A stretch of DNA of 64,000 nt from Pseudodesulfovibrio portus (GTDB taxonomy: Bacteria > Desulfobacterota > Desulfovibrionia > Desulfovibrionales > Desulfovibrionaceae). The DNA is taken from contig NZ_AP026708.1 in NCBI RefSeq assembly GCF_026000375.1, positions 1,242,501 to 1,306,500 of the forward strand, written 5' to 3'. The notes under the pieces were generated by a model. That model saw nothing but the letters and a program-made list of their open reading frames with translations. It had not been told where the DNA came from and ran no database searches. Both the position numbers and the translations under genes were made by a program. Below, piece by piece: positions 1 through 64,000 of the stretch; position 1 is the first letter of the stretch; every line of letters begins with the position of its first letter.

Positions 1-954
1 AAGCTCGATCCGTGGCTGAACAAGGGCATGAACTCGGATAACGAGCGCAAGACCGGCTGCTACTACTGCCACGGCACCATCCTCAAGATGAAGGACGGCA
101 AGCTCGATCCGGACACCTGGCCCAACGTGGGCGTGGGCCGCCTGAACATGGACGGCTCCCTCGGCTCCTGCACCAGCTGCCACACCCGCCACCGGTTCGC
201 GGTCATGGAAGCGCGCAAGCCCGAGACCTGCGGCCAGTGCCACCTCGGCCCGGACCATCCGCAGATCGAGATCTACAACGAGTCCAAGCACGGCGACATC
301 TACCAGGCCTTCAAGCACGAATACAACTTCGACTCCGCGCCCGGCGCCTGGACTCCCGGCGTGGACTACCGCGCCCCGACCTGCGCCTCCTGCCACATGT
401 CCGGCTCGGGCAACCAGGCCACCACCCACGACGTGACCGAGCGGTTGTCCTGGGAAACCCAGGCCCCGCTGACCGTCCGCCCGCAGGACTTCAAGCCGTT
501 CCCGTCCGGCACCGACTGGCAGGTGGAACGCGACAAGATGAAGGACGTCTGCAAGCAGTGCCACGGACAGGCCTGGATCGACTCCTTCTACGGCCAGCTG
601 GACAAGGCGGTCGAGGAATACAACGAGGTCTACTTCAAGCCCGCCAAGAAGATGCTCGACGAGCTGTACGAAAAGGGCAACCTCGACAACACCACGTTCT
701 TTGACGAGAACCTGGAGGTCCAGTTCTACGAACTGTGGCACCACGAGGGCCGCCGGGCCCGCATGGGCTCGGCCATGATGGCCCCGGACTACGCATGGTG
801 GCACGGCTTCTACGAATGCAAGCACCGCTACAACCACTTCATGGAAGAGGCGCGGCACCTGCTCGAAACCAACACCAAGGCTTACAAGTACCCCGACTTC
901 CCGAACACCGGCGGCGACACCACCCGTCCGCCCGCCATCTTCGGCAACCAGTAG
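1..954 (+). CDS. Octahaem cytochrome c, hydroxylamine oxidoreductase-like (3' part)
   Basis: The reading frame is open from base 1, so the gene starts upstream of the window; 317 codons are visible. Five c-type haem sites can be read (CYYCH, CTSCH, CGQCH, CASCH, CKQCH). The signature GPDHPQIEIYNESKHG after the third is typical of the HAO/octahaem family. These are periplasmic proteins. In non-nitrifiers they usually reduce nitrite or hydroxylamine, taking electrons from a NapC/NrfH-type quinol cytochrome that would lie upstream and out of view. The C-terminal end has no obvious membrane anchor. The family call is firm. The direction of the reaction is not determined here, because the remaining haems and the cross-linking tyrosine question cannot be settled from this fragment. 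A strong hairpin terminator follows. Confidence 0.85.
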   Translation, partial: KLDPWLNKGMNSDNERKTGCYYCHGTILKMKDGKLDPDTWPNVGVGRLNMDGSLGSCTSCHTRHRFAVMEARKPETCGQCHLGPDHPQIEIYNESKHGDIYQAFKHEYNFDSAPGAWTPGVDYRAPTCASCHMSGSGNQATTHDVTERLSWETQAPLTVRPQDFKPFPSGTDWQVERDKMKDVCKQCHGQAWIDSFYGQLDKAVEEYNEVYFKPAKKMLDELYEKGNLDNTTFFDENLEVQFYELWHHEGRRARMGSAMMAPDYAWWHGFYECKHRYNHFMEEARHLLETNTKAYKYPDFPNTGGDTTRPPAIFGNQ

Positions 955-2267: not shown

Positions 2268-3650
2268 ATGGCAGACAAGACAACACAGCAGGAACTTCAG
2301 GAGGCGCTCGAACGCATCGAGGAGCTGGAATCCGACCTGGCCTCTCTGGACCAGCAATGCTTCCTCCAGGATATCGAGCAGGACAAGGCGCGCGCCAAGC
2401 TTATTCGATACGAACGGATCATCTCCTCGACCCCGGACCTCATCGCACTCGTGAACAAGCATCACCGATTCCGGATGGCCAACGACGCCTTTGCGGCCAG
2501 CTTCGAGATCAGCCAGGAAAACGTCATCGACCTCCACATCTCCGACGTCCTGGGCAAGGATCTATATGAATCCGTCATCAGGGCACGGCTGGACCGGGCC
2601 CTTGAAGGGGAAACGGTCGTGGTCGAAAACTGGATAGACCTGCCCAAACAGGGCAAGCGTTTTCTCGCCACCACCTACCACCCCGTGATTGTGGAAGGCA
2701 CGGATATCGATTACGTGGCCGTGGACTCCCGGGACATGACCGAGCTCAAGATCAAGGAAGAGGACCTCCAGGCCACGGCCCGGCGGCTGGACCTGGCCAC
2801 CGATGCGGGCAACATCGGCATCTGGGAACGGGATTTCCTGACGAACCGGAATTACTGGGACAAGAAGATGTACGAGCTCTACCGGGTCAAGCCGGGGGAA
2901 TTCGACTCCATCTACGAAGGCTGGCGTTCCCGCATCCACCAGGATGACCTCCCGGAAGTGGAACGGAAGATGGCGGAAAGCGTCGAGACAAAACAGCGGT
3001 ACGAGATGGAATACCAGCTGACCTGGCCCGACGGCGACGTCCGCATCATCAGGTCGGCCTGGACCGTCCAGGCGGGCGAGGACGGCTCGCCCGTGCGCAT
3101 GACCGGGGTCAACTGGGACGTCACCGTGCACCGGCGGATGGAAAACGAGCTGCGTCTGCTCGCATCCACCGACCCCCTGACAGGCGCAAGCAACCGCCGC
3201 CACTTCATGAGCCGGCTGGAGGACGAGCTGGAACGGTGCAAACGGTACGGGACGCGCATGGTCCTGCTCTCCCTGGACATCGACCACTTCAAGGACATCA
3301 ACGACACGTTCGGCCACCCGGCGGGCGACGTGGTGCTCAAGGACATGGTCGCGCTGTGCACCCGGACCCTGCGCACCACGGATGTATTCGGCCGCGTGGG
3401 CGGCGAGGAATTCCTGGCCGCGCTCACCCTGACCGGCCTCGCTGCAGGTCAAAGAACGGCCGAAAGGCTCCGCAAGGGCATCGAGGACCTCGTGGTGAAT
3501 GTTGACGGCAAGTCCATCACCTTCACCATCTCCATCGGCATGACCGAGTTGCTGAGCACGGATCAAACCATCGACCCCCTGCTCCACCGGGCCGACGAAG
3601 CGCTTTACAAGGCAAAGAACAACGGCCGCAACAGGATCGAGACAGTCTGA
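2268..3650 (+). CDS. PAS-PAS-GGDEF diguanylate cyclase
   Basis: 460 residues, cytoplasmic. A short coiled N-terminus (TTQQELQEALERIEELE) is followed by two PAS domains (about 45-165 and 170-290, the second of the PAS_3/PAC type) and a GGDEF domain (about 300-460). The active-site loop reads GGEEF (about 378-382), so the domain should make cyclic di-GMP. RTTD five residues upstream matches the RxxD product-inhibition site. No EAL domain is present. The gene starts six bases after the kinase gene and is probably translationally coupled to it, so sensing and c-di-GMP output may be linked. Confidence 0.92.
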   Translation: MADKTTQQELQEALERIEELESDLASLDQQCFLQDIEQDKARAKLIRYERIISSTPDLIALVNKHHRFRMANDAFAASFEISQENVIDLHISDVLGKDLYESVIRARLDRALEGETVVVENWIDLPKQGKRFLATTYHPVIVEGTDIDYVAVDSRDMTELKIKEEDLQATARRLDLATDAGNIGIWERDFLTNRNYWDKKMYELYRVKPGEFDSIYEGWRSRIHQDDLPEVERKMAESVETKQRYEMEYQLTWPDGDVRIIRSAWTVQAGEDGSPVRMTGVNWDVTVHRRMENELRLLASTDPLTGASNRRHFMSRLEDELERCKRYGTRMVLLSLDIDHFKDINDTFGHPAGDVVLKDMVALCTRTLRTTDVFGRVGGEEFLAALTLTGLAAGQRTAERLRKGIEDLVVNVDGKSITFTISIGMTELLSTDQTIDPLLHRADEALYKAKNNGRNRIETV

Positions 3651-3688: not shown

Positions 3689-5377
3689 ATGGCTCCCCTT
3701 TTCCAGAAAGACCAACCCGACGACTGGTTCCTGCCCAAGGATGTCCGCACCCAGCTGGCAGAGACCTTCAAAAATCTTGACGGCGACGTTGTCCTGGAGA
3801 CCTTCACCCAGACCGGAGTCAACGACGAGTTCGCGGACTACACGCTCAAGTTCTGCGCGGACCTGGCCCGGTTGTCCGACAGGATCAGCACGCGGAACTT
3901 TGCCATCCCGTCCGACCGCGCGAAAAAGCTGGGCGTCACTGCCGCCCCCACCCTGTGCCTCAACCCCGACGACTGCCACATCCGCTTCCTGGGCGCGCCG
4001 GTGGGCGAAGAAGGCAAATCCCTGATCACGGCCATACTGCTCCTTTCCCTTGGCAAATCCGCCCTGTCGGAACTTTCCGTCCAACTCCTCGACGGACTGA
4101 AAGAGGAGCGCCTGGCCCAGGTGTTCGTCTCCCCCACCTGACCGTATTGTCCCGGACAGGTCATGTCCGCCATCAAATGCGCCATCGCCAAGCCCGAGCT
4201 GGTCAGGGCCGAATGCATAGAGAAGAACGAGAACCCGGAACTGGCCGAGCGATTCGAGGTCGGCTCCGTGCCCCACACCGTGTTCAACGAGGGCGCGCAC
4301 CAGGGCCTCGGCCTGATGCCGGAGGAGCGGTTCGTTGCCGAACTCATCTACCTGAAATCCGCAGAGGAACTCCTGGACCAGGGCCTCCTGCCCGGCCAGG
4401 AGGAAGGCAAGGCCCCGTCCGGATTCGGCACCATCGAGCCGGGCGAGGTGGACCTGGTCATCATCGGGGCAGGCCCCGCCGGGTTGACCGCGGGCATCTA
4501 CGCCGTCCGCGCCGGGCTCAAGGCCGTGGTCCTCGAGAAGCACATCGTGGGCGGCCAGGTGGCCCTCACCCCGGTGGTCGAGAACTATCCGGGCTTCACC
4601 TCCGTGCCCGGCAAGCAGCTCATGGACATCATGAGCGAGCACGCGCGCGAATACGTGCCCGTGCACGAGGGCGAGGGAGTGGAATCCATCGAGATGGGCG
4701 ACCTGGCCAAAGGCGAATCCATCATCGTGACCACCAACCGCGGCACCTATTCGGCCAAGGCGGTCATCCTGACCATGGGCGCGGCCTACCGCAAACTCGG
4801 CGTGACCGGCGAGGACAAGTACTTCGGACACGGCATCAACTACTGCGCTTCCTGCGACGGCTACCTGTACAAGGGCAAATCCGTGGCCATCATCGGCGGC
4901 GGAAACACCGCCCTGACCGACGCCCTGCACCTCAAGAACCTCGGCGTGGACGTGACCATCATCCACCGCCGCGACAGCTTCCGTGCCCAGAAACCGCTTC
5001 AGGATTCCCTTGAGCGCGAGGGCATCCCGGTCCTCTGGAACACCGTGATCGACGAATTCCAGGGCGACGGCAAGCGGGTGAACAACCTCAGAATCCGCAA
5101 TCTCATGACCCGGGCCGTGTCCGACCTGCCCGTGGACGGGGCCTTCGTGGCCATCGGCCAGGTGCCGGCCACCGAACTGGCCAAGTCCCTCGGCGTGGAA
5201 CTCAAACCCGATGGTTTCATCAAGGTCGGCCCGGACATGCGCACCAGCGTGCCCCGCGTCTACGCCGCAGGCGACCTGACCGGCGGCCTGCAGCAGATCG
5301 TCACCGCCATCGGCGAAGGCTCCATAGCCGCCATGTCCGCTTTCGAGGATGTCAGCCACCCGTATTGGAAGGAGTAG
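3689..5377 (+). CDS. AhpF-like thioredoxin reductase, probable selenoprotein (in-frame TGA = Sec151)
   Basis: Read through one TGA (4139-4141), the frame encodes 562 residues. Domains are a thioredoxin-like fold (about 1-115), a second thioredoxin/glutaredoxin-like fold (about 140-235) whose redox motif reads SPT-U-PYC, and an FAD/NAD(P)H thioredoxin-reductase module. That module has IIGAGPAG near 255, the active-site CASC at 386-389, GGGNTA near 407 and a C-terminal YAAGD. This is the architecture of AhpF, the NADH reductase of peroxiredoxin AhpC. The second cysteine (Cys154) is kept and the TGA sits exactly at the first. A SECIS-like hairpin follows the TGA. Without readthrough, annotation would split it into a 150-residue protein and a reductase from 4163. 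No ahpC or sel genes lie nearby. Start: GTGAGG upstream of ATG 3689. Confidence 0.88.
4139..4169 (+). other. Selenocysteine UGA codon with bacterial SECIS-like hairpin
   Basis: TGA at 4139-4141 is followed by a stem CGGACA (4153-4158) / TGTCCG (4164-4169) closing a five-base loop GGTCA. The loop begins 17 bases after the TGA. Known family features: bacterial SECIS elements lie immediately 3' of the UGA, inside the coding region, with a G(G)U in the apical loop recognised by SelB; E. coli fdhF uses a GGUCU loop at nearly the same distance. The fit here is close. Readthrough itself is inferred. Confidence 0.85.
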
Positions 5378-63808: not shown

Positions 63809-63851
63809 ATGTAAATAGTTAGTATTATCATTTACATAGATTTTATCTATG
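63809..63851. promoter_or_regulatory. Overlapping inverted repeats upstream of the last gene
   Basis: ATGTAAAT (63809-63816) / ATTTACAT (63830-63837) and CATAGAT (63835-63841) / ATCTATG (63845-63851) overlap in an AT-rich stretch ahead of the gene at 63888. Probably an operator; the regulator is unknown. Confidence 0.55.
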
Positions 63852-63887
63852 CCTGTGTATTCATATTTTCAATCAATGGAGACTGCC

Positions 63888-64000
63888 ATGCCCACTGAGC
63901 AAAATCCCGCATGCGAGCGCCCGGCCCCCAAGGTCGCAAAAGTTCCGCAGCCCGAAGCGGAAGCCCAGTCCCAAACCCCGGAAAAACAAGGAGGCCCCAT
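63888..64000 (+). CDS. Start of a hypothetical protein (truncated by window end)
   Basis: 37 codons are open to the window end from ATG 63888, with TGGAG six bases upstream; an ATG four codons earlier is also in frame. The visible N-terminus is rich in Pro, Glu, Gln and Ala (VAKVPQPEAEAQSQTPEKQ), a low-complexity linker-like start. No domain can be named. Confidence 0.5.
   Translation, partial: MPTEQNPACERPAPKVAKVPQPEAEAQSQTPEKQGGP

Follow-up and report, generated by a model that had tools for sequence, protein, structure and literature searches.

An in-frame TGA as a probable selenocysteine codon in an AhpF-like thioredoxin reductase fusion of Pseudodesulfovibrio portus

Does the TGA codon that interrupts a long reading frame in the genome of Pseudodesulfovibrio portus end a protein, or is it read as selenocysteine (Sec) within a larger flavoenzyme? 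We asked this of a 64-kb stretch of contig NZ_AP026708.1 (the window; coordinates are those of this stretch, and residue numbers count the TGA as Sec). An initial annotation had described two same-frame open stretches split by one TGA, with a bridged product of 562 residues and the TGA at the first position of a CPYC-type motif, and both points proved correct, coordinates included. The frame that opens at ATG 3689 meets its sole TGA at 4139-4141 and then stays open, with both halves in frame, up to TAG 5375-5377, and reading through gives PTUPYCPGQV, in which U is residue 151. From the homologues, a downstream hairpin and the Sec machinery of the genome, we consider that the TGA is very probably recoded as Sec in an enzyme with the domain anatomy given below, at a probability of roughly 0.9.

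Nine named records matched the whole protein, seven of them full-length relatives from Pseudodesulfovibrio, Desulfovibrio or Desulfovibrionaceae and two matching the reductase core only. With the first 240 residues as the query, we found matches in 100 of 199 genomes of the family, among which codon 151 is TGA in 9, TGC or TGT in 90, and not reached in 1 (genome G142). Codon 151 is also TGA in the named records L003 and L004 and, in a different family, in fused genes roughly 550 residues long from the genomes G215, G252, and G315. A profile search of the phylum matched 72 of 395 genomes, many weakly, and matches of about 118 bits or more were read. The total is 14 distinct TGA genes including that of the window, spanning several genera and two families, of which 13 are visibly fused and the remaining one, in G014, is cut by a contig end. 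The initial annotation had proposed that homologues should have cysteine (Cys) at position 151 in some cases and Sec in others, and every homologue codon read at this site was indeed Cys or TGA, with no other residue found. Wherever the main match of a homologue extends over C154 and C386/C389, these positions are Cys.

Two further loci show the component domains on separate frames. G481 (L151 3460-4573), excluded from the 14 TGA genes as not a fused gene, has a protein disulfide oxidoreductase (PDO)-type gene in which TGA occupies the equivalent site and the motif is followed by PR instead of PG. A thioredoxin reductase (TrxR) piece adjoins it in another frame, and this locus looks broken or misassembled. 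On the reverse strand of G230 (L156), TrxR and a PDO-type protein with Cys are encoded in separate overlapping frames, an unfused counterpart of the enzyme.

Hairpins resembling a Sec insertion sequence (SECIS) were scored with a test of our own, not bSECISearch, that called for a stem of at least 4 pairs, a loop of 3 to 8 bases with G in its first two bases, a score of at least 12, and a loop start 16 to 26 bases downstream, counted from the codon's first base. The CGGACA/TGTCCG stem with a GGTCA loop noted earlier in the window was found as described, with its loop starting 17 bases after the TGA and G among the first two loop bases. TGA recurs in 14 distinct genes, and an equally good hairpin arises in just 2.8% of recodings made at random with synonymous codons (p_syn 0.028), so we regard the TGA with its hairpin as more than a chance occurrence. 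A hairpin 16 to 19 bases after the TGA is present in 12 of the 14 TGA genes (12 of 15 rows when the non-fused G481 is included), and 14 of 123 Cys rows have one (8 of 72, plus 6 of 51 further rows), at least G230 and G502 among the 123 not having been seen as fused chains. Scores of the 15 TGA rows (G481 included) and the 72 Cys rows differ with a Mann-Whitney p of 3e-6, with kinship not corrected, and 11 of these 15 TGA rows, versus 2 of the 72 Cys rows (L002 and L070), beat 95% of their synonymous recodings. The hairpin counts exclude G368 (frame broken), G308 and G025 (TGC; not scored), G142 (match short of the site), L099 (a stand-alone domain in G099), and second copies of one genome held under two locus ids. 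Stems vary by lineage (CGGACA, CCTGGCCA, AGGCCAGA, CCGGGGC, and CCACAGC), and family f18 has a G-C pair in place of one A-T pair.

The genome itself is one contig of 3,403,863 bases, 99.99% complete, and the four components of Sec synthesis and insertion that the initial annotation had singled out as a check (selA, selB, selC, and selD) all score over their cut-offs: SelA at 539 bits (cut-off, 22.8), SelB at 399.8 (242.25), tRNA-Sec at 83.6 (gathering cut-off, 47), and SelD at 339 (125). Since this machinery is present and TGA occurs in frame in selD itself and also in a PrxU-type peroxiredoxin, P. portus very probably uses Sec. Among the genomes tested, selB was over the cut-off in 17 of 17 from the same genus and in 28 of 30 overall, the misses being G014 (TGA) and G099 (Cys), and tRNA-Sec was over the cut-off in 11 of 12, barely so in G099 (47.3 versus 47).

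Several observations weigh against this reading of the gene as a selenoenzyme. L004 (3093) and G171 (L063 5451) share the TGA and have no convincing hairpin by our test, G171 showing at best a bulged one by eye; the two fall in one part of the tree and may be losing Sec or using an unrecognised element. The hairpin of G034 is not significant relative to synonymous recodings (p 0.117), one clade contributes 5 of the 12 hairpins in near-identical sequence, so that these are not independent, and the CAG-GTN of the loop coincides with conserved Gln-Val codons. The TGA-bearing draft genome G014 lacks selB over the cut-off, though its tRNA-Sec scores 84.7 bits, and G135 (TGA, 62% complete) has selB and lacks tRNA-Sec over the cut-off. 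Finally, no redox partner gene or ahpC was found beside the enzyme at the window locus or among the annotated shared neighbours of 37 loci.

Sec and Cys forms are intermingled in the phylogeny. In trees of 57 and 79 proteins, made by a quick method with SH-aLRT support only and with G014 in neither, the Sec label requires 6 and 7 changes and well-supported (starred) branches force 5 and 6; gain and loss of Sec are not separable from the tree alone. The gene of the window pairs with the 84% identical Cys gene L002 (5451; genome G156), and this gene and that of G164 (L070 6264, reverse strand) keep the exact hairpin of the Sec genes with TGC at the codon. Their hairpins are probable fossil SECIS elements, and since two TGC genes retain the exact hairpin, the simplest reading suggested is a recent Sec-to-Cys reversion that left the element behind. 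Loss of the Sec machinery as the cause of the Cys forms was rejected within the genus, where 10 of 10 Cys genomes tested have selB over the cut-off, and may fit G099.

The N-terminal part of the protein has a PDO-like fold and the remainder is a TrxR core (Table 1). In an AlphaFold model, U151 lies just ahead of the helix of the second thioredoxin fold; placement of the domains relative to each other is weak (predicted template modelling score, 0.62; root mean square deviation to AhpF, 17-25 A), so we make no claim about their arrangement. The "AhpF-type" label of the initial annotation holds for domain order, a double thioredoxin fold followed by a TrxR core with one redox pair each and UxxC replacing CxxC. 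It fits less well in other respects, as the score for TIGR03140 (AhpF) is 288.3 bits, below the curated cut-off of 502.9, the N-terminal half is PDO-like, and no ahpC adjoins the gene. Scores for TIGR02187 (PDO_seleno_TRX; 157.6 bits for the whole protein and 160.3 for the domain, cut-off 185) and TIGR01292 (thioredoxin-disulfide reductase; 325.3 bits, cut-off 343.45) are also below threshold. AhpF (E. coli 4o5q; 1hyu) likewise has an N-terminal double thioredoxin fold, a linker and a TrxR core, with 26-27% identity over about 550 columns, whereas the window enzyme has Sec in place of the attacking Cys. Unlike PDO (2ayt, 1a8l), the enzyme has a first thioredoxin unit without CxxC and is fused to a reductase. 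Residues 250-559 resemble low-molecular-weight TrxB (3cty), CxxC included, at 37-40% identity, but the window enzyme has its own N-terminal acceptor domain.

Table 1. Features of the putative selenoenzyme gene, in window coordinates
Feature	Position	Strand	Basis
Whole gene, 562 residues, Sec at 151, AhpF-like PDO-TrxR fusion (putative selenoprotein)	3689..5377	+	Reading frame; full-length alignment with homologues
In-frame TGA, codon 151, first residue of U-P-Y-C redox motif (predicted Sec)	4139..4141	+	Same codon in 14 distinct genes including that of the window
C154, second residue of redox pair	4148..4150	+	Cys in homologues whose main match covers the site
SECIS-like hairpin	4153..4169	+	CGGACA 4153-4158, loop GGTCA 4159-4163, TGTCCG 4164-4169
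N-terminal domain, residues about 12-224, two thioredoxin folds	3722..4360	+	Fold 1 without CxxC, fold 2 with UPYC
Thioredoxin-reductase-like FAD/NAD(P) core, residues 253-560	4445..5368	+	
C386-A-S-C389, flavin-proximal redox pair	4844..4855	+	Both Cys in full-length homologues

Sec-containing homologues of the AhpF N-terminal domain have been known since 2006, and PMC1794560 lists a Sec "homolog of AhpF, amino-terminal domain" with 2 sequences, from Carboxydothermus and Symbiobacterium. Excerpts of later papers link TIGR02187 with UxxC (PMC9312934), report an AhpF N-terminal-domain homologue in Asgard archaea (PMC11227280), and retain the domain entry in Table 1 of a 2026 review of 119 families and subfamilies (PMC13188914); the other reductase entries in the excerpt of that review are different proteins (ferredoxin-thioredoxin reductase, CoA-disulfide reductase, and type III sulfide quinone reductase). 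Like the window enzyme, this Sec homologue has a double-thioredoxin-fold domain with Sec first in UxxC, but it is catalogued as a domain protein under a 209-position model, with ABB15282.1 as the example, whereas in the window enzyme the domain is joined to a TrxR core and scores 160 bits against the cut-off of 185 for that model. We found no description of a fused Sec flavoenzyme in titles, abstracts, and passages on Sec AhpF/TrxR or Pseudodesulfovibrio, in a search that lay outside subscription journals and database annotations, and excerpts of PMC10880999 and PMC5627308 contain nothing on Sec in this enzyme. Of five terms looked for in PMC8318568, none occurs there. The domain entry in the literature may silently cover fused members, the NCBIfam name PDO_seleno_TRX suggests that curators are aware of Sec members of the domain family, and the fused form may already be present unremarked in annotated genomes.

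In the mechanism that we propose, SelB and tRNA-Sec would read the TGA as Sec under the direction of the hairpin. Electrons would pass from NAD(P)H to FAD, from FAD to the C386/C389 disulfide of the TrxR core, and from this pair to a selenylsulfide of U151 and C154, which lies in the second of the two N-terminal thioredoxin folds, after which the U151 selenolate would attack a disulfide or selenylsulfide of a separate acceptor. In AhpF, the Cys equivalent to U151 is the attacking residue. Such a one-chain relay is likely, with the order of its steps modelled on AhpF and TrxR biochemistry. Any single acceptor that we might name falls well short of even odds; candidates are a 2-Cys AhpC-like peroxiredoxin encoded elsewhere in the genome (L102, with motifs TFVCPTE and EACPAKW) and PrxU (L101), which has no Cys after its Sec.

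One alternative accepts the recoding and assigns the enzyme to general, PDO-like protein disulfide reduction or to a thioredoxin-like partner instead of a peroxiredoxin. The AhpF-like domain order and the presence of the 2-Cys peroxiredoxin argue against such a role, which is nonetheless a serious possibility at somewhat less than even odds. It is doubtful that the enzyme is a dedicated PrxU reductase in a selenium-to-selenium peroxide pathway, its selenolate reducing the oxidised selenium of the peroxidase, in a lineage that also flips repeatedly between Sec and Cys and leaves fossil SECIS hairpins behind. PrxU (NF040737, 406.9 bits) is, like the window enzyme, a predicted selenoprotein of this genome, whose hairpin has a GGTC loop and identical spacing (TCTCTGC-GGTC-GCAGAGA; loop and loop start are the same in nine relatives), but it is a peroxidase and not a reductase. 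Its gene starts within the window (63849-64000) and runs past it (L101 1342-2103), so that its TGA would sit at window coordinate 64137, and close relatives with TGA occur in about 30 of 199 family genomes by hand count. A Sec-peroxiredoxin (TGA, at least 55% identity) is present in 6 of 9 genomes with the TGA form of the enzyme versus 18 of the 91 other matching genomes, again by hand count and with kinship not corrected; this co-occurrence is suggestive only, because the Cys sisters G156 and G045 also carry a Sec-peroxiredoxin.

The remaining alternatives deny recoding as Sec. That the TGA is a nonsense mutation or an assembly error in a Cys gene, making the locus a pseudogene, is very improbable: although L004 and G171 have TGA and no clear hairpin, TGA occupies this codon in 14 distinct genes drawn from two families and several genera, assemblies of other species included, no second stop was found in the extracted TGA genes, and the single-contig genomes G000, G104, and G198 all have TGA at codon 151. 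For the TGA-bearing close pair OB3/G198, values of nonsynonymous over synonymous divergence (dN/dS) are 0.036/0.498 before the TGA and 0.015/0.55 after it, dN being far under dS on both sides, which shows purifying selection; deeper pairs have dS close to or past saturation. Termination at the TGA to give a protein of 150 residues, with a reductase of 404 residues made separately from ATG 4163, is hardly credible; the open reading frame (ORF) 4163-5377 does open with ATG, but the second thioredoxin fold would be cut at its active site with UPYC in neither product, alignments A1 (12 rows) and A2 show no variation across residues 151-157, and the Cys homologues are one chain. Reading of the TGA by a route other than SelB, as Trp or Cys, would account for both hairpin-less genes and is still highly unlikely, since the non-TGA homologues read have Cys and none Trp, hairpins are enriched in TGA genes, and selABCD are present.

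The surroundings of the gene were compared across the 37 loci using ORF clusters common to at least 4 loci, of which the first 25 were taken, with small clusters and shadow ORFs left unannotated. A PAS-GGDEF gene (2268-3650) lies directly upstream in the window, with a counterpart in 12 of the 37 loci and no evident redox link, and an unassigned ORF, a TetR gene, and TRAP-transporter genes lie downstream. Annotated recurrent neighbours are sensor kinase, PAS-GGDEF, TetR, TRAP-transporter, LytTR response-regulator, and CheW genes, and we rejected context as a clue to the partner, as the annotated shared clusters are regulators or transport. The start of the window (1-954) encodes a multihaem c-type cytochrome (PF13447 on 28-951) whose open frame starts before the window.

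With Sec at codon 151, the selenoproteome would gain a full-length flavoenzyme architecture in which Sec forms the exit of an internal electron relay, and an annotation that takes TGA as a stop would split such genes in two pieces. Sister species with Sec in one and Cys in the other, such as that of the window versus L002/G156 and G002 versus G045, are naturally matched comparisons in which to ask what retains selenium at the site or lets it go, and the hairpin persists in two of the Cys genes.
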